Origin: Salipiger sp. CCB-MM3
GTDB lineage: Bacteria > Pseudomonadota > Alphaproteobacteria > Rhodobacterales > Rhodobacteraceae
Assembly: GCF_001687105.1 (NCBI RefSeq)
Contig: NZ_CP014595.1
Location: 2,140,501 to 2,204,500 of the forward strand
Length of the DNA: 64,000 nt
Reading direction: 5' to 3'
In this document: piece after piece, positions 10,563 through 49,068 of the stretch
Layout of the letters: every line of letters starts with the position of its first letter
Numbering within the stretch: position 1 is the stretch's first letter
Notes under the pieces: model-generated
What the model was told of the DNA's origin: nothing
The model's database searches: none
The model's input: only the letters and a program-made list of their open reading frames with translations
Made by a program: the position numbers and the translations under genes

Positions 10563-10641
10563 GAGGGGGCTGCGCCCCCTCGGCGCTGCGCGCCTCACCC
10601 CCAGGCATATTTTTCGGGCGTATTTTTAAAGAGAAGAAGGG
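10563..10641 (+). repeat. Interspersed two-hairpin element, type A, plus orientation
   Basis: Hairpin 1 is GAGGGGGC-TGC-GCCCCCTC (10563-10581). Hairpin 2 is GGCGC-TGC-GCGCC just after it. The tail follows: CCCCC, an extra CATATTTTTCG, then GGGCGTATTTTTAAAGAG-AAGAAGGG to 10641. Related elements lie at 28583, 33235, 41202, 49008 and 59771. This copy starts 10 bp after the CoA-transferase stop. Confidence 0.75.
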
Positions 10642-10647
10642 CGCGAA

Positions 10648-10686
10648 CCCCGGCTTCGTCTCTTTCCAAATACGCCCGCCGGAGGC
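10648..10686 (-). repeat. Second copy of the interspersed tail, inverted
   Basis: On the minus strand this reads CCTCCGGCGGGCGTATTTGG then AAAGAGACGAAGCCG, the same tail as the plus copy ending at 10641 but facing it. The two form a head-to-head pair in the 230-bp gap before the helicase gene. Confidence 0.65.
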
Positions 10687-10783
10687 GGTCCGATGCGCGC
10701 CAGAGGCGCTTTCCGCCGGGAAAAGCGAAACGCGTTCCGCTGTGCTCTGGTGCGCGGCGCGCCGCTTTAGTAGGGTCGCGCGC

Positions 10784-12325
10784 ATGACGGCGCCCGCGAT
10801 CAGTTTTTCCGAGGATCAGGCCGAAGCCTGGGACCGCGTGGCCGAGATGCTGCGCGGCGCTGGCGTCGATCTGGATGAAGGCACCACCGAACCCGCGCGC
10901 GAGGGCCTGTCCAAGGTCATGGCGCTGATGGGCAAGGCCGGATCGGGCAAGACGCTGCTGCTGGCCGAGCTGTGCAAGGCGCTGCAGGAGGCGGGCTGCG
11001 AGGTGGTCTCGGGCGATTTCGAGAGCCGCCGCAAGCGCGACAAGCGCACGCTGGCGATCCTTGCGCCGACCAATAAGGCGGCCTCGGTGCTGCGCATGCG
11101 CGGCGTGCCCGCCACCACCATCCACCGCATTCTCTACACGCCGGTCTATGATCCGGTCTATGAGCGCATCGCCGAATGGCTGATGGGCAACGAGGAGCGC
11201 CCGGAGATCGAGGCGCTGACCGATGAGGCGCTGGACCGGGCCTATGCCGCGTATCAGGGCCACAAGTCGGTGCCGGCGGCGCTGGCCGCGGCGGGGCTGC
11301 GCGGCAGCGATTTCATCACCGGATGGAAACGCCGCGAAGAGCCGCTCGACATCGGCTTCGTCGATGAGGCCTCGATGCTGGATGACCGGCAGTTCGAGGA
11401 TCTGCGCGAGATCTTCCCCAACCTGCTGCTCTTTGGTGATCCGGCGCAGCTGGCACCGGTGAACCAGTCGGGCAAGATGGTGTTCGACGCGGTGCCCGAG
11501 GACCGCAAAATGGAGCTCTCGCGCATCCACCGGCAGGAAGCCTCGAGCCCGATCCTCGATCTGGCCCATGCGCTGGCCGATCCGGAGGTGGATTTCTACC
11601 GTTTCGAGCGGCTGGTCGAGGAGATGGCGGCCAAGGACGATCGGGTGATCTGGGGCCAGCGGGTCGAGGTGGATCTGATGGCGCGCTCGCCGGTGCTGGT
11701 CTGGCGCAACGCCACGCGCATCCGGCTGATCAACGCCTTCCGTGCCGTGCATGGCGCGCCCGAGACCGAGCTTCTGCCCGGCGAGCCGCTGATCTGCGAC
11801 GGTATCGAACTGCCGCTCAAGCACCGCAAGAAACGGCTCGATCTGGAGGCGCGCGGGCTGATCAAGGGCGCGCAGGTGGTCTATCTCGGGCCGGGCAAGA
11901 AACCCGGCTTCTCGCGGCTGCACGTGATGGGCGCGCCCGACCCGCAGGTTTCGGCGGCGTCCATCGTGAAGATCGAGAAGCCCGACGAGGAAGAGCCCTT
12001 CATCCCCTTCGCCGCGCGCATGGGGGCGACCTTCCTGCATGGCGCGGCGGTGACTATCCACAAGGCGCAGGGCTCGCAGTGGGAGAACGTGCAGGTCTTT
12101 GCGCCCGATCTTTACACCGCTGCGCGCATGGGGCGCGTCGAGGCCGGGCAGCCGCTGTGGAAACGTCTTGCCTATGTGGCCATCACCCGCGCCTCCGACC
12201 GGCTGCACTGGGTGGTGCGCAACCGCCTCGCCAAGCCCTCGGGGCCACTGCGGGTGGATGATCTGGCCGCTGCGGCTCCGGCGCCGCTGGAGCTTGAGAT
12301 GCAGGGCGAGGACGCGGCGGGCTGA
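10784..12325 (+). CDS. RecD2-like ATP-dependent DNA helicase
   Basis: 513-residue superfamily 1 helicase from ATG 10784; the same frame is open further upstream but that part runs through the repeat. Walker A GKAGSGKT at 50-57, Walker B/DEAS box VDEASMLDD near 192-200, motif III-like FGDPAQLAP, and C-terminal UvrD-type motifs VTIHKAQGSQWENV and AYVAITRASDR. It lacks the long N-terminal domains of RecD2 and resembles the short AAA_30/UvrD_C_2 helicases common in Alphaproteobacteria. Function is inferred only at DNA-helicase level. Confidence 0.9.
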   Translation: MTAPAISFSEDQAEAWDRVAEMLRGAGVDLDEGTTEPAREGLSKVMALMGKAGSGKTLLLAELCKALQEAGCEVVSGDFESRRKRDKRTLAILAPTNKAASVLRMRGVPATTIHRILYTPVYDPVYERIAEWLMGNEERPEIEALTDEALDRAYAAYQGHKSVPAALAAAGLRGSDFITGWKRREEPLDIGFVDEASMLDDRQFEDLREIFPNLLLFGDPAQLAPVNQSGKMVFDAVPEDRKMELSRIHRQEASSPILDLAHALADPEVDFYRFERLVEEMAAKDDRVIWGQRVEVDLMARSPVLVWRNATRIRLINAFRAVHGAPETELLPGEPLICDGIELPLKHRKKRLDLEARGLIKGAQVVYLGPGKKPGFSRLHVMGAPDPQVSAASIVKIEKPDEEEPFIPFAARMGATFLHGAAVTIHKAQGSQWENVQVFAPDLYTAARMGRVEAGQPLWKRLAYVAITRASDRLHWVVRNRLAKPSGPLRVDDLAAAAPAPLELEMQGEDAAG

Positions 12326-12451
12326 TGCCCTGCGGCTGATCGGGATTTCCTCTTGCCAGCGGCGGGGCCGATCCGCCAATCTGCCTCGGGTTTGGCAATG
12401 CGCAAGGAGAGGCGATGATCCGGGGCAGCAGCAACAGGCAAGCGGGGCACC

Positions 12452-12898
12452 ATGCCAGCTGAGGCGATCCTAGGAATGGAGCCGAAGGTGTCGCGCTGGT
12501 TTCTTCTGGACGCGGAGAAAGTGGCGCAATTTGGCGCAGTGACCGGCGATCTGAAGTTCTTCCACGAGGACGCGGGGGCCTCGGCCGATTTCCTGTTCGG
12601 AGAGCCGGTGGCGCAGGGCTTTCTGACGCTGTCGCTGCTCTCGGCCATGTGCGCCGACGCGGTGCCGCCCTTTCCGGGACAGATCGCCAATGTGAACTAC
12701 GGCTTTGACCGGGTGCGATTTGTCACCCCGGTGCCGGTGGGCTCGCGGGTGCGCGGGCATTTCACCGTCGGCGGGGTGGAGGAAGAGGAAGAGCGGCTCA
12801 CCGTGCATTGGGACGTGGAGATCGAGATCGAGGGGCAGGTGCGCGATCAGCCCGCGCTGGTGGCGCAATGGGTGACCTTCCTCGAACTGCGCGACTGA
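12452..12898 (+). CDS. MaoC-like hotdog dehydratase
   Basis: 148-residue single-hotdog protein. GAVTGDLKFFHED followed by GEPVAQGFLTLSLLSAM fits the hydratase-2 motif, in which an Asp and a His polarise water for addition to enoyl-CoA. Length is that of a stand-alone (R)-specific enoyl-CoA hydratase or MaoC-domain protein. A hotdog thioesterase follows after 80 bp on the same strand. The acyl-CoA substrate cannot be told from the sequence. Confidence 0.82.
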   Translation: MPAEAILGMEPKVSRWFLLDAEKVAQFGAVTGDLKFFHEDAGASADFLFGEPVAQGFLTLSLLSAMCADAVPPFPGQIANVNYGFDRVRFVTPVPVGSRVRGHFTVGGVEEEEERLTVHWDVEIEIEGQVRDQPALVAQWVTFLELRD

Positions 12899-12978
12899 TC
12901 CTCAGCTGACGCAAAGGCCCCGGCTTGACCCTGCGCCGCGCAGCGCCGACACAAGGGGCGCGCAACAGGAGACCCCGC

Positions 12979-13380
12979 ATGACCGAGCCGTTCCTCGAAG
13001 GCCCTTCGCCCTATCTGCAGCACCTCGGCGCTGCGCTGACCGACTGGCGCGCCGATTTCGCCCGGTTCGAACTGGACTTGGGGCCCGAGCATATGAACCG
13101 GCACGAGAACCCGCATGGCGGGGTTCATGCGTCATTGCTCGACACGGCGATGGGATTTGCAGGCTGTTTCACCGGGGATGCGGACGACAAGCTGATGGCG
13201 CTGACGCTGTCTCTCAACGTGCAGTATCTGTCGCGCCCCAAGGGCACGCGGCTGATCGCCGAGGGCACGCGCACCGGCGGCGGCAAGAGCACCTTCTTTG
13301 CCGAGGCGACGATCACCGATGAGACCGGCGAGCTTATCGCGAAGGGCTCGGGCGTGTTCCGCTACCGCCGCCGGGGCTGA
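12979..13380 (+). CDS. PaaI-type hotdog thioesterase
   Basis: 133 residues from ATG 12979, preceded by AGGAG at 12967-12971; an upstream in-frame start at 12925 has no ribosome site. HENPHGGVHASLLDTAMGFA is the PaaI/4HBT motif, the Asp after HASLL being the likely catalytic residue. It should hydrolyse acyl- or aryl-CoA thioesters. It converges on the acetyltransferase gene with a 3-bp gap between stop codons and no visible terminator. Confidence 0.87.
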   Translation: MTEPFLEGPSPYLQHLGAALTDWRADFARFELDLGPEHMNRHENPHGGVHASLLDTAMGFAGCFTGDADDKLMALTLSLNVQYLSRPKGTRLIAEGTRTGGGKSTFFAEATITDETGELIAKGSGVFRYRRRG

Positions 13381-13383
13381 GGC

Positions 13384-14037
13384 TCAGCCCGGGGCCAGCG
13401 CTTCGAGCGCGGTGATATCCGCAGCCTCGAGCGCGCCGCGGGCCGCGGCGATGCGCTCTCCTGGCCAATGCCACCAAGCGAGGCGCAGGAGAAGGTCGAT
13501 GGTCTCGGGATCGAAGCGCATCTTCGCCACGCGTCCGGGGTTGCCGGTCACCACCGCATAGGGCGGCACCTCGCCGCGCACCACGGCACCCGCGCCGATG
13601 ATCGCGCCCGAGCCGATCTTTGCACCCGCCAGAACCATCGCGCCGGTTCCTAGCCAGACGTCATGGCCGATCTCGATGCCTCGGGCGTCGGGCTGCGTGG
13701 CCTGAATGGCCTCGCGGTCGAACACCATGAAGGGGTAGGTGCTGAGCCCCCGCGTCTCATGGTTGGCCGAGCCGCCGATGAAACGCACGCCATGGGCGAT
13801 CTGGCAGAAATTGCCGATCACCAGCCGGTCTTTTGAGAAGGGAAAGAGATAGGGCGCGAGGCGCGCCGCCCAGCCGTCGACCGCGGGCGGATCGAAATCC
13901 GAGGCGTAGGTGAAACGGCCGACCTCGATGCACGGATGGTCGATCACCGCGCGCAGATGCACGGTGCCCGCGTGCGGGGTGCCATCGGGCAGGATGATGG
14001 GGTGAACTTCCTCCGCGGAGGGAAGGGCAAAGGGCAT
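13384..14037 (-). CDS. CatB/Vat-type hexapeptide acetyltransferase
   Basis: 217-residue left-handed beta-helix acetyltransferase. Hexapeptide turns run through IEIGHDVWLGTGAMVLAG and IGSGAIIGAGAVV; the loop GSANHETRGLSTYPF carries the catalytic His of the xenobiotic acetyltransferase class (chloramphenicol CatB, streptogramin Vat). Chromosomal members in marine Alphaproteobacteria usually have no proven drug substrate, so resistance should not be assumed. Acetyl-CoA donor is expected; the acceptor is unknown. Confidence 0.88.
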   Translation of the reverse strand: MPFALPSAEEVHPIILPDGTPHAGTVHLRAVIDHPCIEVGRFTYASDFDPPAVDGWAARLAPYLFPFSKDRLVIGNFCQIAHGVRFIGGSANHETRGLSTYPFMVFDREAIQATQPDARGIEIGHDVWLGTGAMVLAGAKIGSGAIIGAGAVVRGEVPPYAVVTGNPGRVAKMRFDPETIDLLLRLAWWHWPGERIAAARGALEAADITALEALAPG

Positions 14038-14150
14038 GGGAGCCTCCTTTCGAAACGCATTTGTCAGGGTTTCAAAGGTGCTGGTCCATGGCTCCCTCCA
14101 TCGGTGAACAGGGGCACTCTAGCGCGGAAGGGCGGCGCGGGAAAGCGCGC

Positions 14151-14753
14151 TCACTCTCCCGGGCGTTTGAGCGAGAACACCTCGCGGATCACCGCATAGT
14201 CGCGGTAGCCGAGGCGGGTGAGCGGCTGGAAGGTGGTCACATCGAACTGCCCATCCTTGAGGCAGTCATCACGCATGTGAACGCCAGTGACCTCGCCGAA
14301 GACGGCGAAATTCGCCGCGCCTTCCAACGGCACGATCTGGGTCACCTTGCATTCCAGCGAGGCAGGCGCCCCGGCCACGCGCGGGCAGTCGATGGTCTCG
14401 CACTCGGCTTTCTCGATCCCGGCGAGGGTGAACTCATCCTCGCCCGCCGGCCACGGCCCGGAGCTGAGGTTCATCACGTCCCGCGCCGCGTATTCGACGA
14501 TGTTGACGCAGAAGACACCGCTTTCGCGCAGCTGCGCCACGCTGTCCTTGGTGCCGTCGCGGTCGTCCTTGGCCGAGGTCGAGGCGAACATCACCTGCGG
14601 CGGCACATAGGCCACCGCGTTGAAGAAAGAATAGGGCGCGAGGTTGTCGCCCATCGTCCCGCGGGTGGAAATCCAGCCGATAGGGCGGGGGGTGACGATG
14701 GCGTTGAACGGGTTGTGCGGCAGGCCGTGGCCGTCTTCGGGGCGGTAGAACAT
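14151..14753 (-). CDS. Flavin reductase family protein (FMN-binding split barrel)
   Basis: 200-residue flavoprotein. NAIVTPRPIGWISTRG and APYSFFNAVAYVPPQVMF are the classic flavin-reductase-like split-barrel blocks that bind FMN. No fused oxygenase domain. Such proteins supply reduced flavin to partner oxygenases or act as small flavoprotein oxidoreductases; no oxygenase gene is adjacent, so the partner is unknown. It is 113 bp upstream of the hexapeptide acetyltransferase on the same strand. Confidence 0.88.
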   Translation of the reverse strand: MFYRPEDGHGLPHNPFNAIVTPRPIGWISTRGTMGDNLAPYSFFNAVAYVPPQVMFASTSAKDDRDGTKDSVAQLRESGVFCVNIVEYAARDVMNLSSGPWPAGEDEFTLAGIEKAECETIDCPRVAGAPASLECKVTQIVPLEGAANFAVFGEVTGVHMRDDCLKDGQFDVTTFQPLTRLGYRDYAVIREVFSLKRPGE

Positions 14754-14834
14754 GCCTGTCCTCTCAGCTGTTTGCGCGGTCTTTGGACCCGTGATAGGGC
14801 CAATTCAGCCAAAACGCCACGGGAGAGCACACCT

Positions 14835-15320
14835 CTGTACAGCTTGTTTCAGGAACGCCCGGATGATGTCTGGGAGGTCGAGGCCCTCTATGACCTCAGC
14901 TTTGCGCCGGGGCGGACGCTGCTGTCGTCCTACCGCCTGCGCGACGGCGTGGCGCCGGTGGCCGAGCTGTGCCGCGTGGCCAAGGACGAAAGCGGCATCA
15001 TCGGCGGCGCGATCCGTTACTGGCCGGTGCGTGTGGGCGAGGTGCAGGCGCTGCTTCTGGGGCCGGTCGCGGTACACCCCACGGCGCAGGGCGAGGGGCT
15101 GGGCGCGGCGCTGATCCGCGACACGCTGGAGCGGGCACGGGCGCTGGAATGGGGCCGGGTGCTGCTGGTGGGTGATGAGCCCTACTACCGCCGTTTCGGC
15201 TTTTCCAAGATCGACGGGGTCGAGATGCCGCCGCCGACCAACCCCGAGCGCGTGCTGGCGATGGAACTGCGCCCCGGCGCATGGGCCGGTGTGACCGGCG
15301 AGGTCACGCGCAAAGCTTGA
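14835..15320 (+). CDS. GNAT N-acetyltransferase, apparently starting at CTG
   Basis: 161-residue GNAT protein; LLGPVAVHPTAQGEGLGAAL is the acetyl-CoA pyrophosphate loop and YYRRFGF the typical C-terminal strand. The frame is open far upstream but contains no ATG or GTG near the conserved N-terminus. CTG at 14835 lies 7 bp after a GGGAGAG Shine-Dalgarno and gives an N-terminus YSLFQERPDDVWEVEALYD; a TTG at 14844 is the alternative. Substrate unknown. Confidence 0.78.
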   Translation: MYSLFQERPDDVWEVEALYDLSFAPGRTLLSSYRLRDGVAPVAELCRVAKDESGIIGGAIRYWPVRVGEVQALLLGPVAVHPTAQGEGLGAALIRDTLERARALEWGRVLLVGDEPYYRRFGFSKIDGVEMPPPTNPERVLAMELRPGAWAGVTGEVTRKA

Positions 15321-15370
15321 AATTTCGGGGGCGGGGCCGATCTTCTTAGAAAGACCCTAGGAGGCGCAAG

Positions 15371-16126: not shown

Positions 16127-16533
16127 CCGCTTCGAAAGGTTAATGGCCTAGAGACTTGCGTAAGGCGCGGTGAAACCCGCGCCGCAACGCCCGCGCAGAA
16201 GGTGCGGGTTGTGTCCCGTGTCAGAACGGCCGGCGATGCGCGCAACATCCAAATCGCCCGGGGCGCGGGGGACCGATGCGCCGGGCGAGCCACTTTGCAA
16301 CAAATCTAGCCAGTCGCGCAGACGCCCGGAAGCAGGCCGAAGGCGCCGGGCGAGCGCCTGCTCGTCCGGGCGGGCTGGCGCTTTGTGAAACTCGCGCGCC
16401 GCTGACGTGCTGGCCGGACTTGGCTGGCATAAAGCGCAGACCTCATGCGGAGCAGCGCCATCCCACGGGCAGACGCTCATCCGGCGCGCGCCGGACATGC
16501 TTAATCCGTTTCAGATAGCGGCCTTGCCCCGCC
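16127..16533. other. 407-bp gap without a recognisable gene; contains a perfect 16-bp palindrome
   Basis: No frame here looks like protein. Several GC-rich inverted segments occur, the clearest being TCCGGCGC/GCGCCGGA at 16480-16495, a perfect palindrome 39 bp past the ptsP stop on the minus strand. It could mark the ptsP transcript end, although no T-run follows. The rest shows nothing I can name. Confidence 0.4.
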
Positions 16534-18783: not shown

Positions 18784-18830
18784 TCGGCCACCCTGTCCCT
18801 AATTATTTGGAAGGGAGCCCGCGGTGTCTG

Positions 18831-20183: not shown

Positions 20184-20206
20184 GAGTATTTTTGGAAAGA
20201 TGAAAG
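20184..20206 (+). repeat. Interspersed tail, type C (GAGTATTTTTGG plus AAAGATGAAAG)
   Basis: A 23-bp unit shared almost exactly with 44858-44880. It lies in the 202-bp gap between the lysC start and the end of the next minus-strand gene, oriented opposite to those genes. It lacks the clear GGGGC hairpins found with types A and B. Confidence 0.6.
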
Positions 20207-28076: not shown

Positions 28077-28555
28077 CGACCCCGGTCCCCCCCTCCGGCA
28101 ATCAGAAACGCCGTATGAAATCCGCATCGCGGCTCTATGCCGTGCAGGCGCTCTATCAGATGGAGCTCTCGGGCACGACGGCCGAGAAGACCATGCAGGA
28201 GTTCTACGACTACCGCTTCGGCGCGGAGGTCGAAGAGGGCGTGGAGCTGGTCGAGGGTGACATTGATCTTTTCGGCAAGCTGGTCGGCGAGGCGGTGAAC
28301 TGGCAGGCGAAGATCGACCAGATGACCGACCGCGCGCTGGTGGCGAAATGGCCGATCGACCGCATTGATCCGATCCTGCGCGCGCTGTTCCGCGCCGCCG
28401 GGGCCGAGATGGTGGCGCTCGACACGCCGCCGAAAGTGGTGATCACCGAGTTCCTCGACGTGGCGCGGGCGTTTTTCCCCGAGGGCCGCGAAGTGCAATT
28501 CGTCAACGCGATCCTCGACCACATGGCGCGCGAGGCCAAGCCCGAGGCGTTCTGA
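28073..28555 (+). CDS. nusB: Transcription antitermination factor NusB
   Basis: 160-residue NusB. Helical fold; SASRLYAVQALYQMELSG, DPILRALFRAAGAEM and VVITEFLDVARAFF are family blocks. Binds boxA RNA with NusE during rRNA antitermination. ATGA overlap with ribH. The ribB-ribH-nusB order is widespread. Confidence 0.95.
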   Translation: MTTPVPPSGNQKRRMKSASRLYAVQALYQMELSGTTAEKTMQEFYDYRFGAEVEEGVELVEGDIDLFGKLVGEAVNWQAKIDQMTDRALVAKWPIDRIDPILRALFRAAGAEMVALDTPPKVVITEFLDVARAFFPEGREVQFVNAILDHMAREAKPEAF

Positions 28556-28582: not shown

Positions 28583-28648
28583 GGGGGCGCTGCCCCCGCC
28601 GCGGCTGCGCCGCGACTCCCCCGGCGTATTTTTAAAGAGAAGAAGGGG
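28583..28648 (+). repeat. Interspersed two-hairpin element, type A
   Basis: Hairpin 1 GGGGGC-GCT-GCCCCC (28583-28597), hairpin 2 CGCGGC-TGC-GCCGCG right after it, then ACTCCCCCGGCGTATTTTTA and AAGAGAAGAAGGGG to 28648. It starts 27 bp after the nusB stop; the tail leads straight into a terminator stem. Confidence 0.78.
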
Positions 28649-33068: not shown

Positions 33069-33145
33069 GCCGCCTTAGCTCAGTAGGTTAGAGCGCTTGA
33101 TTGTGGATCAAGAGGTCTCCCGTTCGAACCGGGAAGGCGGTACCA
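33069..33145 (+). tRNA. tRNA-His (GTG)
   Basis: Acceptor GCCGCCT/AGGCGGT, D-arm GCTC/GAGC, anticodon stem CTTGA/TCAAG with loop TTGTGGA (anticodon GTG), T-arm TCCCG/CGGGA, discriminator A and encoded CCA. G1-T72 is a wobble. A73 instead of C73, and a T instead of G at position -1, match the derived alphaproteobacterial tRNA-His lacking G-1. Confidence 0.96.
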
Positions 33146-33234: not shown

Positions 33235-33295
33235 GGGGCGCTGCCCCGTCCGCGCTGATGCGCGGACTCCCCGGGATATTTTTGTCTAGACGAAG
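33235..33295 (+). repeat. Interspersed two-hairpin element, type B
   Basis: Hairpin 1 GGGGC-GCT-GCCCC (33235-33247); hairpin 2 GTCCGCG-CTGATG-CGCGGAC (33248-33267); tail CCCCGGGATATTTTTG then TCTAGACGAAG to 33295. It ends 2 bp before the stop codon of the minus-strand gene that follows, so it is also its immediate 3' region in reverse. Confidence 0.78.
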
Positions 33296-33297
33296 GT

Positions 33298-39859: not shown

Positions 39860-39884
39860 CTTGCAGGGGTCGGCGGATTTTTTC

Positions 39885-41186
39885 TTAGATTCCGAGGCGG
39901 TCGCGCAGCGCGTACCAGCTCATCGCCAGCACCAGCAGCGGCGAGCGCAGCGCCGCGCCGCCGGGGAAGCTGGGGACCGGCAGCGCCGCCATGGCGTCGA
40001 AGCCAGCAGACTGGCCGCGCACCGCCTCGGCCAGCAGCCGCCCGGCATGAACCGCGGTGCCGACGCCGTGGCCCGAATAGCCCGAGGCCGACAGCACGTT
40101 GGGACCCAGCCGCGCCAGCAGCGGCAGGCGCTTCATGGTGATCGCCAGCGTGCCGCCCCAGGCGTAGTCGATCTTCACATCCTCAAGCTGCGGGAAAATC
40201 TCCAGCATCGGCTTGCGCACCAGCGCGCGGATGTCCGCGGGGAAACGGTAGCCGTAGCTCTCACCGCCGCCGAACAGCAGCCGCCCGTCGTGGCTGAGGC
40301 GGAAGTAGTTCACCACGAATTTGCTGTCGGCCACGGCCACGTCGCGGGTCAGCACTTCACGGGTGCGCTCCCCCAACGGCTCGGTGGCGACGACGAAATT
40401 GTTGATCGGCATAACGCGCGCCGCGACCTTGGGCTGCAGATCGCCAAGATAGCCGTTGCAGGCATAGATCACATGGCCCGCGCGCAGACGGCCCTTGCCC
40501 GTGTGGATGACCGCCTCGGGGCCCTGATCGACCTTTGAGACATGGCTGGTCTCATAGATGCGCGCCCCGGCGCCTGCCGCCGCTTTCGCCAGCCCTTGGG
40601 CAAAGCGCAGCGGGTGCAGATGCGCAGCGCCCATGTCGAGCACGCCGCCACAATAGTCGGGCGAGGGGCAGAGCTCATGGAAGGCCCCGGCGTCGAGCTG
40701 CTCGATCTCGTAGCCATAGCGCGTGCCCATATGATCGGCATACTCATGCAGATGCTGCACGTCGCCCTTGCTGGAGCCGCACCATGCCACGCCGTCGCGC
40801 AGATAACAGTCGATGCCATGCTTTGCGATGAGGCTGCGGCAGAGATCCTTGGCTTCCTCGCCAAGATCCCAAAGCACCCGAGCGTCGGCCTCACCAACCA
40901 TCTTCTCGAGGCTCAGCTGATCCTGCCGCTGTCCCGACCCAAGCTGCCCGCCGTTGCGCCCCGAAGCGCCAAATCCGACGCGATGCGCCTCCAGCAGCGC
41001 CACATCGAGCCCGGCTTCGGCCAGATGCAGCGCCGCCGACAGCCCGGTATAGCCGCCGCCGATGATGCAGACATCTGCCCGCGCCTCGCCTTCGAGCGCG
41101 GGGAAGGGGGGCAGCGCATCGGCAGTCGCCGCGTACCAGCTTTGCGGGTATTCCCCGCGCCGGTCGTTGGAAAACAGCAGGTCCAT
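39885..41186 (-). CDS. puuB: FAD-dependent oxidoreductase, gamma-glutamylputrescine oxidase-like
   Basis: 433-residue DAO-family flavoenzyme. N-terminal dinucleotide fold VCIIGGGYTGLSAALHLAE (about 38-57), ASGRNGGQLGSGQ typical of PuuB, and a C-terminal ASGYSGHGVGTAVHAGRLLAE FAD segment. PuuB oxidises the gamma-glutamylated amine to an aldehyde, releasing H2O2 and ammonia. Clustering with glutamine-synthetase-like and amidotransferase genes supports this. Exact amine unproven. Confidence 0.85.
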   Translation of the reverse strand: MDLLFSNDRRGEYPQSWYAATADALPPFPALEGEARADVCIIGGGYTGLSAALHLAEAGLDVALLEAHRVGFGASGRNGGQLGSGQRQDQLSLEKMVGEADARVLWDLGEEAKDLCRSLIAKHGIDCYLRDGVAWCGSSKGDVQHLHEYADHMGTRYGYEIEQLDAGAFHELCPSPDYCGGVLDMGAAHLHPLRFAQGLAKAAAGAGARIYETSHVSKVDQGPEAVIHTGKGRLRAGHVIYACNGYLGDLQPKVAARVMPINNFVVATEPLGERTREVLTRDVAVADSKFVVNYFRLSHDGRLLFGGGESYGYRFPADIRALVRKPMLEIFPQLEDVKIDYAWGGTLAITMKRLPLLARLGPNVLSASGYSGHGVGTAVHAGRLLAEAVRGQSAGFDAMAALPVPSFPGGAALRSPLLVLAMSWYALRDRLGI

Positions 41187-41201
41187 GAAACACCGCCTCC
41201 G

Positions 41202-41249
41202 CTTCGTCTAGATGCAAATATCCCGGGGGTCCGGGGGCAGCGCCCCCGG
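41202..41249 (-). repeat. Interspersed hairpin element, type B, minus orientation
   Basis: On the minus strand: CCGGGGGC-GCT-GCCCCCGG hairpin, then ACCCCCGGGATATTTG and CATCTAGACGAAG. Only one hairpin is present. It lies between the PuuA-like stop and the oxidase start. Confidence 0.75.
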
Positions 41250-41271
41250 CCTGTTCGCGCCCGTTCCCGGC

Positions 41272-42636
41272 TCAGACGTTGAGCAGCAGGTGCTCGCGTT
41301 CCCACGGCGAGATCACCGCGAGAAATTCTTCGTACTCGGTGCGCTTCACGATCGAGTAGACGCGGGCAAAGTCCGGCCCCAGCACCTCGTGCAGCTTGGT
41401 CGCCTCGTCGAAGATATCCAGCGCCTGTCCCAGCACGCGCGGGATGTCGCCCTCCCCCTCATAGGCGTCGCCGCGGAACTGCTTCGACGGGCGCCGCTCT
41501 TCCATCAGGCCGAGGTAGCCGCAGGCCAGCGAGGCGGCGATGCCGAGGTAGGGGTTGCAGTCCATCCCCGCGAGGCGGTTCTCGACGCGCCGCGACGACG
41601 GACCCGAGATCGGGATGCGGATGCCGGTGGTGCGGTTGTCGCGGCCCCATTCGAGGTTGATCGGTGCGGCGCTGTCGCGCACGTAGCGGCGGTAGCTGTT
41701 CACATAGGGTGCCAGCACGGCGATCGCCGCCGGAAGATGCGCCTGCAGCCCGCCGATGAAGTGATAGAAGGCGTCGGTCTCGCCGCCGGCGGGGCCGGAG
41801 AAGATGTTGCGCCCGGTCTCGATCTCCATCACCGAATGGTGGATGTGCATGGCCGAGCCCGGCTCATCGGCGATCGGCTTGGCCATGAAGGTGGCAAAGC
41901 AGTCGTGGCGCAGCGCCGCCTCGCGGATCAGCCGCTTGAAGTAGAAGATCTCGTCGGCCAGCTTCACCGGATCGCCGTGCTGCAGGTTGATCTCGAGCTG
42001 ACCGGCGCCGCCTTCCTGCGTGATGCCGTCGATCTCGAAGCCCTGCGCTTCGGCGAAGTCGTAAATGTCGTCGATCACCGGGCCGAACTCGTCCACGGCG
42101 GTCATCGAATAGGCCTGCCGGGCGGCGGCGGGGCGGCCCGAGCGACCCATCATCGGCTTGATGTCGATCGCCGGATCGACGTTGCGCGCCACAAGGAAGA
42201 ATTCCATCTCCGGCGCCACAACCGGCTCCCAACCCTGCGCGCGGTAAAGCTCGACCACCCGCTTCAGCACGTTGCGCGGGGCGTAGGGGATCGGCTCGCC
42301 CTTGCGGTCAAAGGCGTCGTGGATCACCTGCAGCGTCCAGTCGGCCGTCCACGGCGCGGCGGTGGCGGTGGTCATGTCCGGGCGCAGGATCATGTCGCGC
42401 TCGATGAAACCTTCGTTTTCGTCCGCCGCCTCGCCCCAGTCGCCGGTGATCGTCTGGTAGAAGATCGACTCTGGCAGGTGGAAATAATCCTGCCGGGCAA
42501 ATTTCGACGCAGGCACCGCCTTGCCGCGGGCAATGCCGGGCAGGTCGGCGATCACGCATTCGACCTCGTCGAGCCGCCGCCCTTCGAGATAGGCGGTGGC
42601 GGGTTGCGGAAGCTGGTTGGTCCAGTCTTCGGTCAT
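41272..42636 (-). CDS. puuA: Glutamine synthetase family protein, gamma-glutamyl-amine ligase-like
   Basis: 454 residues from ATG 42636. GS catalytic domain: PEMEFFLVARN (metal Glu), GGAGQLEINLQHGDP, MHIHHSV and DNRTTGIRIPISGPSSRRVENRL, with the adenylylation-type Tyr block absent. The N-terminal half lacks the ammonia-site aspartate context of GlnA, as in PuuA, which glutamylates putrescine. It overlaps the amidotransferase gene by 4 bp. The second GS-like gene lies 800 bp upstream. Substrate could be putrescine, another polyamine or a monoamine. Confidence 0.85.
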   Translation of the reverse strand: MTEDWTNQLPQPATAYLEGRRLDEVECVIADLPGIARGKAVPASKFARQDYFHLPESIFYQTITGDWGEAADENEGFIERDMILRPDMTTATAAPWTADWTLQVIHDAFDRKGEPIPYAPRNVLKRVVELYRAQGWEPVVAPEMEFFLVARNVDPAIDIKPMMGRSGRPAAARQAYSMTAVDEFGPVIDDIYDFAEAQGFEIDGITQEGGAGQLEINLQHGDPVKLADEIFYFKRLIREAALRHDCFATFMAKPIADEPGSAMHIHHSVMEIETGRNIFSGPAGGETDAFYHFIGGLQAHLPAAIAVLAPYVNSYRRYVRDSAAPINLEWGRDNRTTGIRIPISGPSSRRVENRLAGMDCNPYLGIAASLACGYLGLMEERRPSKQFRGDAYEGEGDIPRVLGQALDIFDEATKLHEVLGPDFARVYSIVKRTEYEEFLAVISPWEREHLLLNV

Positions 42637-43316: not shown

Positions 43317-43435
43317 GGATCACACGTTGGTTTCGCTGGCGCGGTTTATGTGGCGCGGTTTGTCTGGCGCGTCTTTCAGGCCAGGGCGTTCTGCGCCGAA
43401 GGTAGCCTTGCCGCCCGAGGGCGGCAAGGTGGTGC

Positions 43436-44779
43436 TCAGACCGTATCGAGATAGATTTCTACCTGCTCCTGCGGCGAGAGTTCGGCCATGTAGAGCTGCT
43501 CTTGCCGTTTGGTCAGCAGCAGGTTGCGGATCAGTTCGGGCGGCAGGATGCGCGGCATGATTGGGCTGGCCTCGAAGGCGTCCATCGCCGATTCCCAGTC
43601 GGTGGGGATCGTCGGCAGGTCCTGCGCGTAGGCGTTGCCGGTAATCGGTGCGGGCGGCTCCATCTCGTCCTCGATCCCGGCCAGCGCCGCGCCGAGGATG
43701 GTGGCCATCAGCAGATAGGGGTTCACGTCGCCGCCCGCCACGCGATGCTCGATGCGCCGCGCCGCCGGGCTGCCCGAGGGCACGCGGATCGCCGCGGTGC
43801 GGTTCTCATAGGCCCAAGAGATGCCGCAGGGCGCGTGGTTCTCGGGGATCAGCCGGTCGTAGGAGTTGAGATGCGGCGCAAAGATCAGCGTGCTGTCGCT
43901 CATGGCGTTGACGCAGCCGCCAATGGCGTGGCGCAGCACGTCGGTGCCTTTGGGGCCACCGTCGTCGAAGATGTTGTTGCCGTCCTCGTCGAGCACCGAG
44001 AAATGCATATGCATCCCCGAGCCGGCGTAATCCTCGTAGGGTTTGGCCATGAAGGAGGCGGCAAAGCCGTGGCGGCGCGCCAGCCCCTTCAGCAGCATCT
44101 TGAACAGCCACGCATCGTCGGCGGCGCGCAGCGCATCGTCCTGATGCATCATATTGATCTCGAACTGACCCAGACCCGCCTCGGAGATGGCGGTGTCGGC
44201 GGGGATGTCCATGTCCTCGCAGGCGTCGTAGAGATCGGTGAAGAAGATGTCGAACGCGTCGAGCGCGCGGATCGAGAGCACCTCGGCGGCTTTGCGGCGC
44301 TTGCCCGAGCGGGGCGAGACCGGCACCTGCAGCTTGCGGGTGCTGTCGTCGATCAGGAAGAACTCCATCTCCAGCGCCACCACGGGGGTCAGCCCGTGTT
44401 TCTTGTAGCGGCGGACCACCTGCGCCAGCGCGTGGCGCGGATCGCCCTCATAGGGTTTGCCGCCCTCGTGGAACATCCAGATCGGCAAAAGCGCGGTGGG
44501 GGCCTCGAGCCACGGCATCGGCACAAAGCCACGCTCAGTGGGCTTGAGTACGCCATCGCGGTCGCCGCTTTCAAACACCAGCGGGCTGTCGTCGATGTCC
44601 TCGCCCCAAATGTCGAGGTTGAGGGCCGAGAAGGGGAAGCGGGTGCCATCCTCGACGACCTTATGGGCGAAACGGGAGGGCACGCGCTTGCCGCGTGGCT
44701 GGCCGTTGAGATCGCAGGCGGCGACGCGGATGGTGCGGACCTGGGGGTTCTTGCGGAGCCAGGTTTTCGGGTCTGTCAT
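43436..44779 (-). CDS. Second glutamine synthetase family protein
   Basis: 447 residues, clearly paralogous in role to the 454-residue gene downstream but with low identity. GS blocks: LEMEFFLID, GLGQFEINMMHQDD, SGMHMHFSVLDEDG, ENRTAAIRVPSGSPAARRIEHRV. N-terminal DLNGQPRGKRVP matches the PuuA-like group. Two different ligases in one cluster imply two amine substrates or two steps. It follows the ABC permease genes after a 234-bp gap that includes a type C repeat. Confidence 0.87.
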   Translation of the reverse strand: MTDPKTWLRKNPQVRTIRVAACDLNGQPRGKRVPSRFAHKVVEDGTRFPFSALNLDIWGEDIDDSPLVFESGDRDGVLKPTERGFVPMPWLEAPTALLPIWMFHEGGKPYEGDPRHALAQVVRRYKKHGLTPVVALEMEFFLIDDSTRKLQVPVSPRSGKRRKAAEVLSIRALDAFDIFFTDLYDACEDMDIPADTAISEAGLGQFEINMMHQDDALRAADDAWLFKMLLKGLARRHGFAASFMAKPYEDYAGSGMHMHFSVLDEDGNNIFDDGGPKGTDVLRHAIGGCVNAMSDSTLIFAPHLNSYDRLIPENHAPCGISWAYENRTAAIRVPSGSPAARRIEHRVAGGDVNPYLLMATILGAALAGIEDEMEPPAPITGNAYAQDLPTIPTDWESAMDAFEASPIMPRILPPELIRNLLLTKRQEQLYMAELSPQEQVEIYLDTV

Positions 44780-44857
44780 GGTCTATCCGGAAATTTGATC
44801 AAATTAAGCGTAGCGACTCGGATGCACGCTGGCAAGCGGGGGGGTGGCGGGAAGAGA

Positions 44858-44880
44858 GGAGTATTTTTGGAAAGATGAAA
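44858..44880 (+). repeat. Interspersed tail, type C
   Basis: GGAGTATTTTTGG then AAAGATGAAA, the same unit as at 20184-20206, in the gap between a permease stop and the second GS-like gene and oriented opposite to both. A GGCCGGGCGCCCGG palindromic stretch lies 40 bp further on. Confidence 0.6.
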
Positions 44881-45013
44881 GAGCGGGCGCGCAGAGAAGC
44901 CGCCTGCCACGCGAAATATGGCCGGGCGCCCGGACTCCGGGGCTGACAGGTGCCAGGGTATGGTGGGGGCCTTGGGTAAGGGCGCTCAGGCGGCGCGCCT
45001 TGCGTCCGCTCCG

Positions 45014-45823
45014 TCAGCGCAGCAAGAGCCGCGGACGCATCCGCATCTTCTGGCGACGCTCTTTGGGCAGATGCCGGTTCAGCCGCTTGTTGATCAGCCC
45101 GAAGACGCCGACCACGCAGAGTGTCAGCAGGATGAAATAGCCCGCAAGGATCGGGTAGGGGATGAACGGGTTGAAGGTCTTGTCGGCGAAGTAATTCGCG
45201 TAATAGAGCGCGTCGCCCCGCTGCTGCCACGCCGGAAAGCCCGAGAAGAACACCAGCGTGGTGGCGTGGAAGAGGAAGATCGCCTCGTTGGTGTAGGCGG
45301 GCCACGCGAGGCGCAGCATGGTCGGCCAGACGATGCGGCGGAAGCGCGGGAGCCCCGAGAAACCGTAGGCGTCAGCCGCCTCCACATCGCCCTTGGGCAC
45401 CGAAAGCAGCGCGCCGTAGAAGATCTCGCCCGAATAGGCGGCGGTGTTGAAGAACAGCACGATCGCCGCGCCCAGCCACGCCGAGGTCAGCGGATCGAAG
45501 ACCGGCGAGACGCTCTTGAGGCTGAGGAACAGGAAGTAGGCAAAGAAGAACTGGATGAAGAGCGGCGAGCCGCGGAACACGAAGATCACCCATTCCGCCA
45601 GCTTGCGCAGCGGGGTGATCTTCGATGCCTTGCCCATGGCCAGCGCCGTGGCGAGGCAGAAACCGGTGATCAGGCTGACGATGCCGAAGTAGATGTTCCA
45701 CAGCATGCCCGAGCCGATCAGTGTGAACTGCTGGCACAGGGTGAAATTGTCGCGCGGCAGCAGCCGCTCGCCGATGCCGATCGAGCGCAGCCCGTAGTCC
45801 GCGATGGTTTCCCAGCAGCTCAT
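45014..45823 (-). CDS. ABC transporter permease, polar amino acid (HisM) type
   Basis: 269-residue inner-membrane permease with five to six spans; SVPKGDVEAADAYGFS is the EAA loop that contacts the ATPase. It belongs to the amino-acid/opine 3-TM-like family (HisM/ArtM). Overlaps the partner permease by 4 bp. The basic C-tail (LNRHLPKERRQKMRMRPRLLLR) is longer than usual. Confidence 0.9.
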   Translation of the reverse strand: MSCWETIADYGLRSIGIGERLLPRDNFTLCQQFTLIGSGMLWNIYFGIVSLITGFCLATALAMGKASKITPLRKLAEWVIFVFRGSPLFIQFFFAYFLFLSLKSVSPVFDPLTSAWLGAAIVLFFNTAAYSGEIFYGALLSVPKGDVEAADAYGFSGLPRFRRIVWPTMLRLAWPAYTNEAIFLFHATTLVFFSGFPAWQQRGDALYYANYFADKTFNPFIPYPILAGYFILLTLCVVGVFGLINKRLNRHLPKERRQKMRMRPRLLLR

Positions 45824-46701
45824 GAGGCCTTCCTCTGCGCTTCGCCGCCCATGGTCGCCTGACCGTGGGTGAGGCGCTTCATGATGCGGTCAAGGACGAT
45901 CTCCGACACGCGGGTGAAGACCAGATAGAAGACCAGCAGCGCCGCGAAATACCACACCCGCCAGTCGGGGTGCGGATAGTCGGTGAAGCGCGCGGTCTTC
46001 GAGCCGCCGAGTTCGCGCGCCCAATAGACGATGTCCTCGACCCCCAGCAGGAACAGCAGCGGCGTCGCCTTGATCAGCACCATCCACAGGTTCGACAGGC
46101 CGGGCAGCGCATAGACCCACATCTGCGGCACGAGGATGCGCCAGAAGGTCTGGCGCCGGGTCATGCCATAGGCCTCGGCGGTCTCGAGCTGGGCGTGTGG
46201 CACGGCGCGCATGGCGCCAAAGAGCACATTGCCCGCGAAAGCCCCGAAGACGATGGCGAAGGTCAGCACCGCCAGCGAGAAGCCATAGGTCTCATGCACC
46301 CATTGTGCCGCGGTCGACAGCGGCAGCTTGGCCTCGGCGCAGACCACGAAGTCATTGCCCTGCCGGATCGGCTGATCCCAGTCGGGGCATTTCACTTCGT
46401 GGCGGATCCACTCGAAGAACTGGTCTAGGGCGATGACAAAGAACAGGAAAAAGGCGATGTCCGGCACGCCGCGCACGATGGCGATATAGCCCTTGCCCAG
46501 CCACGACAGCGGCGGGAAGGGGGAGCGGGCCGCCATGGCGCCGCCGAAACCGAAGGCCAGCGCCACCGGCGCGGTGATCGCCAGCAGCAGCAGCACGGTG
46601 CCGACCGAGACATAGATCGACATGTGCTTGCCCGTGGTCAGGTAGCAGCTCAGCCAGCTCAGGCCAGAGATCGCGTCGGGGTCGGTACACCAAGAGAACA
46701 T
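45820..46701 (-). CDS. ABC transporter permease, polar amino acid (HisQ) type
   Basis: 293-residue permease; spans at both ends with a long loop carrying two Cys residues (VKCPDWD and VVCAEAK) at about residues 120-150, uncommon in HisQ and perhaps a disulfide-closed periplasmic hairpin. EAA loop: AVPHAQLETAEAYGMTRRQTF. Pairs with the 45014 permease as a heterodimer. Confidence 0.9.
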   Translation of the reverse strand: MFSWCTDPDAISGLSWLSCYLTTGKHMSIYVSVGTVLLLLAITAPVALAFGFGGAMAARSPFPPLSWLGKGYIAIVRGVPDIAFFLFFVIALDQFFEWIRHEVKCPDWDQPIRQGNDFVVCAEAKLPLSTAAQWVHETYGFSLAVLTFAIVFGAFAGNVLFGAMRAVPHAQLETAEAYGMTRRQTFWRILVPQMWVYALPGLSNLWMVLIKATPLLFLLGVEDIVYWARELGGSKTARFTDYPHPDWRVWYFAALLVFYLVFTRVSEIVLDRIMKRLTHGQATMGGEAQRKAS

Positions 46702-46716
46702 GTCGGATCAGCCGTC

Positions 46717-46739
46717 GAGGGGGCCGGACAGGCCCCCTC
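46717..46739 (-). terminator. Intercistronic hairpin between binding-protein and permease genes
   Basis: GAGGGGGCC (46717-46725) and GGCCCCCTC (46731-46739), perfect 9 bp with a 5-nt loop. No T-run. In ABC operons such hairpins stabilise the binding-protein mRNA or attenuate the permeases, giving excess binding protein. Confidence 0.6.
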
Positions 46740-46751
46740 GTCTTGGGGCGC

Positions 46752-47474
46752 TCAGAACGGAGCGCCGATTTCCCATTTCACGAGCAGCTCGTTGAGCGAG
46801 CCATCGTCCTTCATGGACTGGATCGCCGCGTCGAACTTCTCTTTCAGCTCGGCGTCGCTCTGGCGCAGGCCCATGCCGACGCCGCCACCGATCAGCTCTT
46901 CCTGTTCGAGCAGCACCACGTCGTCGCTCTCGTCGGCGACCGGCGCGAGATAGCTCTTGTCGGCCAGAACCGCGTCGGCTTCGCCGCTGCGCACGGCGGC
47001 GACGGTCTCGTCCGGGGTGGCGTATTCCACGAGGGTTGCGCCCATTTCAGCGACGAAGGCGGCCTGAATGGTGCCGGTCTGCGCGGCGATCACCGCGCCC
47101 TTCAGATCGACGTCTTCCATGCCCGAAAGCACGAGGTAGGCCGAAGGGTCTGGCTGGGTGTAGTTCTGGGTGAAGGCGATGACTTCGGCCCGCTCGGGGG
47201 TGATCGACATGCCAGCCATGATCGTGTCGTAGTTGCCCGACACGAGGTTGGGGATGATCGAATCCCAATCGTTGGTCACCCACTCGCAGGTCACTTCGGC
47301 GCGGGTGCAGAGCTCGTCGCCCAGTTCGCGCTCGAAGCCGTCCACTTCACCGCTGTCGTTGATGAAGTTGTACGGAGGGTAGGCGCCCTCGGTGCCCATG
47401 CGCACCACGTCCTGTGCCAGCGCGACGCTGGCGGTCATCGCCAGCGCGGCGGTGCCGAGAAGGATGGATTTCAT
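46752..47474 (-). CDS. ABC transporter substrate-binding protein, amino-acid type
   Basis: 240 residues from ATG 47474, preceded by GGGAG; the frame upstream is not coding. Signal peptide MKSILLGTAALAMTASVALA with cleavage before QDV. SBP_bac_3 fold: GTEGAYPPYNFINDSGEVDG, YDTIMAGMSITPERA, and C-terminal NELLVKWEIG. A CTRAEVTCEW pair may form the usual N-lobe disulfide. HisJ/LAO-like family: arginine, ornithine, octopine or a related cationic ligand would fit an amine cluster, but ligand is inferred. Confidence 0.92.
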   Translation of the reverse strand: MKSILLGTAALAMTASVALAQDVVRMGTEGAYPPYNFINDSGEVDGFERELGDELCTRAEVTCEWVTNDWDSIIPNLVSGNYDTIMAGMSITPERAEVIAFTQNYTQPDPSAYLVLSGMEDVDLKGAVIAAQTGTIQAAFVAEMGATLVEYATPDETVAAVRSGEADAVLADKSYLAPVADESDDVVLLEQEELIGGGVGMGLRQSDAELKEKFDAAIQSMKDDGSLNELLVKWEIGAPF

Positions 47475-47523
47475 GTAACTTGCTCCCTGGTTTACGCGTC
47501 CGATTGCGGTTCTTGGCCGCTTG

Positions 47524-48336
47524 TCAGACATGGCTGGTCGACCGCAGGAAGCCCTGCAGTCGTTCCGATTTCGGCGCGCCGAACAGCTCGGCCGGGGCGC
47601 CTTCTTCCTCGATGCGCCCCTTGTGCAGGAACACCACGTGATCGCTCACGTCATGGGCCATCTTCATGTCGTGGGTGACGATGATCATGGTGCGGCCTTC
47701 GGCGGCCAGATCCTTGATCACCTTGACCACTTCCTGCTCCAGCTCGGGATCGAGCGCCGAGGTCGGCTCGTCAAAGAGCAGCGCCTCGGGCTCCATGCAT
47801 AGCCCGCGCGCGATCGCCGCGCGCTGTTGTTGGCCGCCGGAAAGCTGCGCCGGGAAGACGTCGGCCTTGTCGCCGATGCCGACCTTGTCGAGATAGCGCC
47901 GCGCGGCGGCCTCGACCTCGGCGCGCGGACGGCCGAGCACGGTGAGCGGCGCTTCCATCACGTTCTGCAGGATGGTCATATGGGCCCAGAGATTGAACTG
48001 CTGGAACACCATGGAAAGATTGGTGCGCATGCGCAGCACCTGCTTGGGGTCCGCCGGGCGGCGATTGTGCCCGGAGCCGTGCCAGCGCACCGGCTCGCCC
48101 TTGAACAGGATCTCGCCTTGCTGGCTGTCTTCAAGCAGGTTGCAGCAGCGCAGCAGAGTGGATTTGCCCGAGCCCGAAGATCCGATCAGCGAGACGACGT
48201 CGCCGCGCTTGGCGGTGATGCTGACGCCCTTGAGGACTTCAAGCTCGCCATAGGCCTTGTGCAGATCGCGGATCTCGATGACGGGATCGAGGGTCTTTGC
48301 GTTGGCTGGGGCGTTGGCAGGAGCGGGATCGGTCAA
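47524..48336 (-). CDS. ABC transporter ATP-binding protein, amino-acid type
   Basis: 270-residue HisP-like ATPase. Walker A GSSGSGKSTLLR, Q-loop VFQQFNLWAHM, signature LSGGQQQRAAIARGLC, Walker B ALLFDEPTSALDPE, H-loop VTHDMKMAH. First gene of the apparent transport operon ATPase, binding protein, permease, permease. Start at 48336 leaves a 30-residue N-terminal extension with Ala-Asn-Pro bias; an internal Met start is possible. Confidence 0.93.
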   Translation of the reverse strand: MTDPAPANAPANAKTLDPVIEIRDLHKAYGELEVLKGVSITAKRGDVVSLIGSSGSGKSTLLRCCNLLEDSQQGEILFKGEPVRWHGSGHNRRPADPKQVLRMRTNLSMVFQQFNLWAHMTILQNVMEAPLTVLGRPRAEVEAAARRYLDKVGIGDKADVFPAQLSGGQQQRAAIARGLCMEPEALLFDEPTSALDPELEQEVVKVIKDLAAEGRTMIIVTHDMKMAHDVSDHVVFLHKGRIEEEGAPAELFGAPKSERLQGFLRSTSHV

Positions 48337-48482
48337 GCCTCACCTTCTTGGGCAGTTGCTGAATCTGGCGGCGAGAATGGGCGAAAAGCAGCCCCGATGT
48401 CCATGCGCAAAACAGCAGGCTCTGCCGGGTTTGCGCGGCGTAAATGGGCAATTGCCCGGAAATCAGCCGGATGGACGGAGTC

Positions 48483-48923
48483 TCAGCCCGCGGCTTCGAC
48501 CCTTTGCCGGGCCAGCGCCGAATCTCTGTCGTTGATGCCGAGCAGGTTCGACACCAGCCGCAGCAGCGCGTCTTCCTCGTCGTCGCGGCTGCCGTCGGCC
48601 AGCGCCACCTGCCACAAGGCCTCGATCACCGCGATGCGATCCTCATAGGCTACGGCGTCCTTGATCGCGCGGGTGAAACGCACGGTATCGGGGGCCTCGG
48701 CCTCCAGCGCCTCGGCCTCGCGGCGCAGCTTGCTGGCCTCGAAGGGCGACAGGCCATAGCGCGTCGCGGCGATGCGGTCGATCCGGTCCTGTTCGGACTG
48801 GTCGTAGGTTTCATCGGCCCGTGCCACACGCACGAGCAAAGCGCAGAGCGCCAGCCGCGCATCGGCGTCGGGCAGGAGCTCGGGGCCGGGATCGACCAGC
48901 CGTTTCAGGAAATCCGCAAACAT
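48483..48923 (-). CDS. TerB family protein
   Basis: 146 residues from ATG 48923; no clear ribosome site. All-helical TerB fold: ARADETYDQSEQDRIDRI and ALADGSRDDEEDALLR are the two pseudo-repeats whose acidic residues bind metal in TerB. Tellurite resistance is the historical name; other ter genes are absent, so a role in metal or envelope stress is only suggested. A diverged paralog lies 168 bp upstream. Confidence 0.85.
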   Translation of the reverse strand: MFADFLKRLVDPGPELLPDADARLALCALLVRVARADETYDQSEQDRIDRIAATRYGLSPFEASKLRREAEALEAEAPDTVRFTRAIKDAVAYEDRIAVIEALWQVALADGSRDDEEDALLRLVSNLLGINDRDSALARQRVEAAG

Positions 48924-49007
48924 AGGCAAGATATAGCCGCCTCTTGCCGCCGCGCCAACGGCAGAGCGTGACGGGCGTCGCACGAAGCTGTGTGCGACGG
49001 TTTCCGC

Positions 49008-49068
49008 CTTCGTCTAGAGGCAAATATCCCGGGGGAAATCCGCGCCAGCGGATTGGGGCAGAGCCCCC
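49008..49068 (-). repeat. Interspersed two-hairpin element, type B, minus orientation
   Basis: On the minus strand: GGGGC-TCT-GCCCC hairpin 1, AATCCGC-TGGC-GCGGATT hairpin 2, then TCCCCCGGGATATTTGCC and TCTAGACGAAG. Hairpin 2 differs in sequence from the copies at 28598 and 33248 while keeping full pairing. Between the two TerB genes. Confidence 0.78.

Follow-up and report, generated by a model that had tools for sequence, protein, structure and literature searches.

Extragenic palindromes are usually regarded as transposition products or as terminators. Repetitive extragenic palindromes (REP) and bacterial interspersed mosaic elements (BIME), with their REP-associated tyrosine transposases (RAYT), occur in more than 100 copies, in several types per genome and in alternating orientation (PMC2817692, PMC3733652), and one end of a REP is marked by a GTAG or CGTC tag (PMC3733652). 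DNA uptake sequences of Neisseriaceae, as described in PMC3630211, form lineage dialects, two of which can coexist in one genome, occur in terminator-linked inverted pairs and are common inside genes. Rho-independent terminators consist of a GC hairpin followed by a T-rich stretch downstream of genes. Within Rhodobacterales, the HRC-8-4 RNA motif is restricted to the order and has a terminator-like stem (PMC8632094), and in a study of 3′ ends in Rhodobacter sphaeroides, no motif is reported to recur upstream of pnp-enriched 3′ ends (PMC7866481). Here we describe a dispersed gene-end element of Rhodobacteraceae, first seen in a 64,000-nt stretch of Salipiger sp. CCB-MM3 (contig NZ_CP014595.1, positions 2,140,501 to 2,204,500; hereafter the window), whose tail sequence differs between closely related genomes at shared sites. 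We would place it among the known extragenic palindromic repeats, with a dialect behavior otherwise known from uptake sequences.

A bipartite element with four tail types

We confirmed that the element is genuine: a GC hairpin, often two, is followed by TATTT, about 10 bases and GAAG (GAAA in type D). Its anatomy was read from 104 copies in CCB-MM3, comprising those of the window, those of a contiguous 400-kb stretch, the first 30 listed loci of an A/B tail pattern and all 30 loci of a strict C pattern. The core has the consensus G-N-R-TATTT (with rare exceptions), followed by two or three free bases and then one of four tails, namely A (AAAGAGAAGAAG; 35 of the 104 copies), B (CCAAGAGGAAG; 26), C (TCTAGACGAAG; 33) and D (GGAAAGATGAAAG; 10). 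Tails end in GAAG or GAAAG and are constant within a type, the only freedom being in the two or three bases adjoining TATTT. The stretch that opens with TATTT and closes with GAAG (GAAA in D) is 19 nt long in 95/104 copies, which places two fixed blocks 10 bp apart, about one helical turn. All 20 full tails of types B, C and D in a 464-kb sample were preceded by TATTT; for the 16 full type A tails, TATTT lay within 12 nt in 14 and within 9 nt in 11.

A sequence-only reading of the window had proposed related sequence at eight loci between genes, full copies with two hairpins, and A, B and C tails that differ in a fixed way. Core and tail were present at every one of the eight loci. Two-hairpin copies do exist, but the copy at 41202 on the minus strand has hairpin 1 only, and those at 20187, 44862 and 59774 lack a hairpin pair. 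The three tails are indeed fixed types; what had been missed is the fourth type, D, at 20187 and 44862, and the use of the tails as genome-wide dialects.

The same reading would have failed had there been few copies elsewhere in the genome. Strict tail patterns instead found 106 and 30 copies in the 5.52-Mb CCB-MM3 genome and a loose pattern found 261, with 0 for the reversed-pattern controls. Chance similarity or a sequencing artefact, which would have to produce 261 matches against 0 and to recur in independently sequenced genomes, is refuted for practical purposes.

Two side observations concern the anatomy. A fifth core type, E (GCGTATTTNNNGAACAATGAA), was seen in the congener G154 and in CCB-MM3, near 313980 (L133) and 325440 (L134) of the 400-kb stretch, and hairpin-1 units with spacers stand in tandem immediately upstream of some cores (L008, L013, L014 and L056).

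Genome-wide dialects of the tail

Tails were counted in 20 genomes of the genus by exact patterns with GGGATATTT, which leave altered copies uncounted; the reversed control gave 0 in all 20. Type B (CCAAGAGG) had 66 copies in CCB-MM3 and none in the other 19 genomes. A further dialect, C′ (CCTAGAAGAA; short form CCTAGAAG), had 143, 85, 30 and 2 copies in G153, G154, G159 and G158, respectively, and none in the remaining 16, CCB-MM3 included. Likewise, a dialect F (CATRTGGAA) had 41 and 38 copies in G157 and G164 and none in the other 18. Judged by these patterns, dialects are all-or-none among the 20 genomes, and a small local census was consistent with the genome-wide counts. In a tree built from 10 proteins, the relations of G157, G159, G158, G153, G154 and G164 were weakly supported (55-81). 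At site 351595, the sequence from the core to 52 nt past the tail was identical in the two dialect-F genomes, G157 and G164, which hints at exchange between them.

The genome of G158 has few intact copies, and at three of its four type A sites (L218-L237) the A-type tail is kept while TATTT decays. This genome is a candidate case for the loss of a trans-acting factor.

Different tails at shared sites

Cells of site and genome were read by eye where seven congeners are syntenic with the 400-kb stretch. CCB-MM3 has seven B loci there, of which 106515 and 125035/125065 could not be placed in the congeners and five could (277979, 317992, 347585, 351595 and the pair 362810/362839). Among the resulting 30 cells, none had a B tail, 29 had the element with another tail (some degenerate) and one was decayed. 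At 347585, a 21-nt hairpin (CCGGGGGTTTCACACCCCCGG) was identical in CCB-MM3 and six congeners (7/8 genomes; degenerate in G158), and it was followed by tail B in CCB-MM3, C in G157 and G159, a C′-like tail in G153 and G154, F in G164 and GCAAGATGAAG in G155. In G157, G164, G153, G154 and G155, the two arms of the inverted pair 362810/362839 agreed with each other in a dialect other than B, with GTTTA in place of TATTT in G155; the pair mixed C′ and C in G159 and was decayed in G158. In the gap after a glutamine-synthetase-like gene, the element was recognized by eye in all 19 readable genomes of the genus with no fewer than eight different tails (in G039 the contig stops there), and among 80 named genomes the same gap held it in Salipiger, Mameliella, Marivita, Roseovarius, some Leisingera and others.

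Because the congener sites hold the element with other tails, insertion into empty sites cannot account for the difference, and the tails have been respelled in place under a standing hairpin. The sites are shared and the tails differ, yet the tails are consistent within each genome, so that something in the cell must read, select or write the tail at 30 to 140 places.

These sites also bear on a mobile palindrome of the REP/BIME kind, in which an enzyme would spread hairpin and core together and A to D would be subfamilies. Such spread predicts empty sites for a private dialect, whereas the B sites were occupied in congeners in all mapped cells but the decayed one. Other features resemble REP/BIME. 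More than 100 extragenic palindromic copies fall into subfamilies, and inverted pairs of one type are present, with all 11 close B-B pairs on contig C1 standing tail-to-tail, though mixed pairs exist (C/D at 179422/179463 in CCB-MM3, C facing A at 2126540/2126603 on C1, and C′/C in G159). Eight 22-nt hairpin segments are common to several loci (18/105 copies), which indicates cassette copying, and congeners differ in presence or absence of the element at 283618 and 325492. Unlike REP sequences, however, the element has no GTAG or CGTC tag and its tail is rewritten at shared sites. RAYT-driven spread was rejected, as the Y1 transposase family PF01797 had 0 matches in the CCB-MM3 genome and was found in 5/14 control genomes. 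We consider a mobile palindrome of this kind unlikely.

Tandem old and new cores were considered as insertion footprints and rejected, since a second TATTT lay upstream in only 2/105 copies; in one of these (window 10604-10639), a complete core clearly comes after one that lacks a tail.

Putative readers of the tail and position at gene ends

We tentatively prefer, at somewhat less than even confidence, a reading in which these gene-end elements are recognized by putative sequence-specific trans-acting factors of drifting specificity. The element would consist of two parts, one or two GC-rich hairpins, as a rule close behind a stop codon, and a bipartite core, the latter being read by several factors per cell, one for each of the tail types A, B, C and D. 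When the specificity of a factor drifts, selection or drive would respell its sites in place throughout the genome, leaving hairpin and position untouched. The effect at a site would probably be on transcript ends, by termination, 3′-end stabilization or insulation, and tail-to-tail pairs would work in both directions. We infer the existence of the factors, their nature and their effect on transcripts; the presence of four or five types per genome, together with type A at shared congener sites, fits several factors better than one. A more specific version is possible but doubtful: Rhodobacteraceae may have several paralogous recognition systems that each serve a separate genome-wide set of gene-end sites, shift specificity between close species and rewrite dozens to more than 100 sites in place, as a bacterial counterpart of co-evolving reader-and-site systems and possibly through templated or guided writing of the tail. 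We would rank both mobility and an uptake-like drive behind drifting factors, with the same reserve as attaches to the preference itself. Identifying the reader of the tail would reveal a factor acting at gene ends, a tag for uptake or recombination, or a mechanism of homogenization, new in each case, and the congeners already offer a natural experiment.

Gene positions were taken from our own crude codon-usage calls, which limit all gene-position counts. On these calls, the core was present in 6/36 convergent, 20/146 co-directional and 2/76 divergent gaps of at least 60 nt (convergent versus divergent, p = 0.013). A called 5′ gene was available for 67 unpaired copies and is oriented toward the element in 47 of them (p = 0.001); TATTT lies a median of 64 nt past the stop codon.

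Several observations weigh against factors that read the tails at gene ends, the crudeness of the gene calls being one of them. The other 20 of the 67 unpaired copies are antisense to the called 5′ gene, and canonical terminators are equally frequent at gene ends with the core (5/23) and without it (35/157). The D core at 44859-44881 of the window is antisense and lies upstream of promoter-like sequence (by eye), which misfits a pure RNA role. In the 80 named genomes, the glutamine-synthetase gap lacks an element in six Ruegeria, three Sulfitobacter and other genera; with so many named genera lacking it, the site is not essential. Nor is a type simply kept at its sites: type A sites in congeners, read by eye, had A in 13/25 arm-genome cells, C′ in 5 and an absent or decayed element in 7. 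At 333585 the switch to C′ was accompanied by a different hairpin 2, so copying or recombination is needed and whole-element exchange also occurs. The D/D pair 283618/283655 was absent in both mapped congeners and the D copy at 325492 in all six. Finally, no factor was found in this analysis.

The same positions suit ordinary intrinsic terminators, with a GC hairpin, a short U-tract and the tail as a by-product. Location at 3′ ends, the sense bias, the hairpin before TATTT and the avoidance of divergent gaps all agree with that explanation, as does the rarity of a canonical terminator after the tail in sense copies of type B or C (1/34, against 6/24 for type A; p = 0.016). When compared at the sequence level with the U-tract of an intrinsic terminator, however, what follows the element hairpin is TATTT plus free bases that are not T by rule, and GTTTA replaces TATTT in some congeners. 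Beyond the T-rich stretch stands a sequence-specific tail as constant within its type as TATTT, some cores have no hairpin, the antisense copies counted above are not accounted for by plain termination, and the six sense type A copies already precede a canonical terminator. Ordinary termination is therefore an improbable account of the whole element. The HRC-8-4 motif differs in being found mainly between cco operons and conserved in its loop (PMC8632094), whereas our element is dispersed and conserved after the stem.

Position inside genes bears on an uptake-type explanation, in which the core would tag DNA for an import or recombination route and preferred import of same-kind tagged DNA would rewrite the sites. 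All-or-none dialects with in-place rewriting are the outcome expected from such a drive, and the Neisseriaceae dialects cited at the outset offer a parallel. A ComEC-family gene is present in CCB-MM3, but also in 10/14 control genomes, including E. coli. Frequent copies in coding sequence, as described for uptake sequences in PMC3630211, were not found. Although the coding share was about 87% of the 400-kb part on our own gene calls, only 1/36 full tails in 464 kb lay inside a called gene (A 0/16, B 1/9, C 0/5, D 0/6). With permuted expectations of 0.03-0.47 each, below one by chance, this indicates a lack of enrichment rather than proven depletion, and shorter tail strings were frequent in genes (AGAAGAAG, 27 against 5.9 permuted; AAGAGGAAG, 7 against 2.9). 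We rejected the expectation of tails inside genes on the full-tail count, these sub-strings notwithstanding. The coexistence of four or five types also fits uptake poorly, as does a bipartite core that is mostly hairpin-attached, and we regard such a drive as rather unlikely.

Pairing in the hairpins

The sequence-only reading had pointed to hairpin-2 stems at 28598, 33248 and 49037 whose bases differ while the pairing is kept; all three are exact, and the pattern holds more widely. Stems of at least 5 bp formed in 54/63 hairpin-2 segments (mean 5.5 versus 3.2 for shuffled segments) with 30 different 5′ arms, and in an alignment of 25 copies, hand-chosen out of 82, both partners of three pairs had changed (in 5, 10 and 11 sequences). 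All five pairs of hairpin 1 were invariant in this alignment and hence uninformative on covariation. Hairpin 2 thus covaries, and selection on pairing would account for hairpin 2 but not for the tail. The further claim that structure is what selection acts on holds only in part: hairpin 2 is kept, but structure is not the main constraint, because the most constant part of the element is the sequence TATTT-N10-GAAR, which occurs without a hairpin too. That reading had further proposed RNA or single-stranded DNA as the acting form; this may be so, but the 20 antisense copies among the 67 unpaired ones tell against taking it for granted.

Three runs were of equal length in 62/77 copies (5,5,5 in 49; 4,4,4 in 13), as in the window at 28583-28623 and 33235-33273: the G-run and the C-run of hairpin 1 and another C-run just ahead of the core. 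The G-run would thus be able to pair with either C-run, and two mutually exclusive pairings are possible. Folding z-scores for four window copies were -0.4 (28583-28645), -4.5 (33235-33295), -1.8 and -1.1, and the score for the inverted-pair region 10560-10700 was -4.4; not every copy on its own folds more stably than its shuffles.

Taxonomic range

The idea that similar tails may be common among relatives was borne out. A scan of the order with the loose pattern gave at least one match in 136/149 genomes, many of them near control and about four dozen with 20 to 110. Outside the family but within the same class, 140 genomes had at most 17 loose matches each, with controls similar in size. Since counts outside the family stay near control, the element as defined by the loose pattern appears confined to Rhodobacteraceae (GTDB family f1); this limit is bound to the pattern, and other spellings may occur elsewhere. 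Other genera of the family spell their tails differently, with CCAAGATGAAG, AACAGAAGAAG and GCCAGAAGAAG among the places listed.

No named family was recognized for the element, in keeping with the sequence-only reading: none of six loci had a covariance-model match at gathering score in Rfam 15, where the window matched only as a tRNA, and the two matches listed were both far below their gathering scores. A description of the element was not found in the open-access literature, a search that left subscription papers uncovered. With the regular expression used, a strain-level check for insertions in two stretches of Alloyangia pacifica plasmids found no core, and no plasmid record covered 80% of the query for one C2 and one C6 locus. 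Loci from a scan of a very large viral-contig collection, with a pattern of about 15 fixed bases, were judged uninformative and left aside. At L060, on contig C6, a B and a C core lie within about 300 nt of one another and adjoin genes whose similarity to plasmid records marks them as ParB-like and AAA-ATPase. In the glutamine-synthetase gap of Roseovarius (L206 and L217), a hairpin-less tail, AAGAAGAAG, immediately precedes the next start codon, for which it may provide the ribosome-binding site.

Copies in the window

Within the window, CCGGNRTATTT with at most one mismatch had 9 matches against 2.9 expected; 0/100 shuffles reached 9 (largest 8).

The first full copy, with tail A, occupies 10563-10639 on the plus strand and begins 10 nt past the end of a CoA-transferase gene (9435-10553). 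Hairpin 1 (GAGGGGGCTGCGCCCCCTC, 10563-10581) and hairpin 2 are followed by two cores, a tail-less GGCATATTTTTC at 10604-10615 and GGGCGTATTTTTAAAGAGAAGAAG at 10616-10639 (TATTT to tail end, 10621-10639). The tail-less TATTT here directly precedes the complete type A core, which looks like an addition to an older one. An inverted tail-to-tail partner with a variant type A tail lies on the minus strand at 10654-10688, with the hairpin CCGCC-TCC-GGCGG and GCGTATTTGGAAAGAGACGAAG (TATTT-tail 10654-10672).

Two further full copies lie on the plus strand. The type A copy at 28583-28645, downstream of nusB (28115-28555), has hairpin 1 at 28583-28597, hairpin 2 (CGCGGC-TGC-GCCGCG) at 28600-28614 and the core CGTATTTTTAAAGAGAAGAAG (TATTT-tail 28627-28645), and a hairpin with a T-run comes after its tail. 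Downstream of a tRNA (33069-33142), the type C copy at 33235-33295 has hairpin 1 (GGGGCGCTGCCCC) at 33235-33247, hairpin 2 (GTCCGCG...CGCGGAC) at 33248-33267 and the core GATATTTTTGTCTAGACGAAG (TATTT-tail 33277-33295).

Both copies on the minus strand besides the inverted partner are of type C. The one at 41202-41249 (CCGGGGGCGCTGCCCCCGGACCCCCGGGATATTTGCATCTAGACGAAG; TATTT-tail 41202-41220) has hairpin 1 only and lies between a glutamine-synthetase-like gene (41272-42636, minus strand) and an FAD-oxidoreductase-like gene (39885-41186, minus strand). The full copy at 49008-49068 has GGGGGCTCTGCCCC, hairpin 2 (AATCCGC...GCGGATT) and the core GATATTTGCCTCTAGACGAAG (TATTT-tail 49008-49026); it is downstream of a gene call (49091-49498, minus strand) with a below-cut-off match to TerB, and the element at this site is absent or decayed in several congeners.

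Three cores on the plus strand have no hairpin pair. Two carry tail D: GAGTATTTTTGGAAAGATGAAAG at 20184-20206 (TATTT-tail 20187-20206) is antisense between two minus-strand gene calls, and the core at 44859-44881 (TATTT-tail 44862-44881) lies upstream of another glutamine-synthetase-like gene, in antisense orientation. Eight congeners keep a D-like core at the latter site, with changes in two of the eight (G153 and G154), and type D was found there in 1/72 longer named loci (Alloyangia pacifica). The third, a type A core (TGCGTATTTGGAAAAGAGAAGAAG) at 59770-59793 (TATTT-tail 59774-59793), is followed by a terminator-like site with a hairpin and a T-run.

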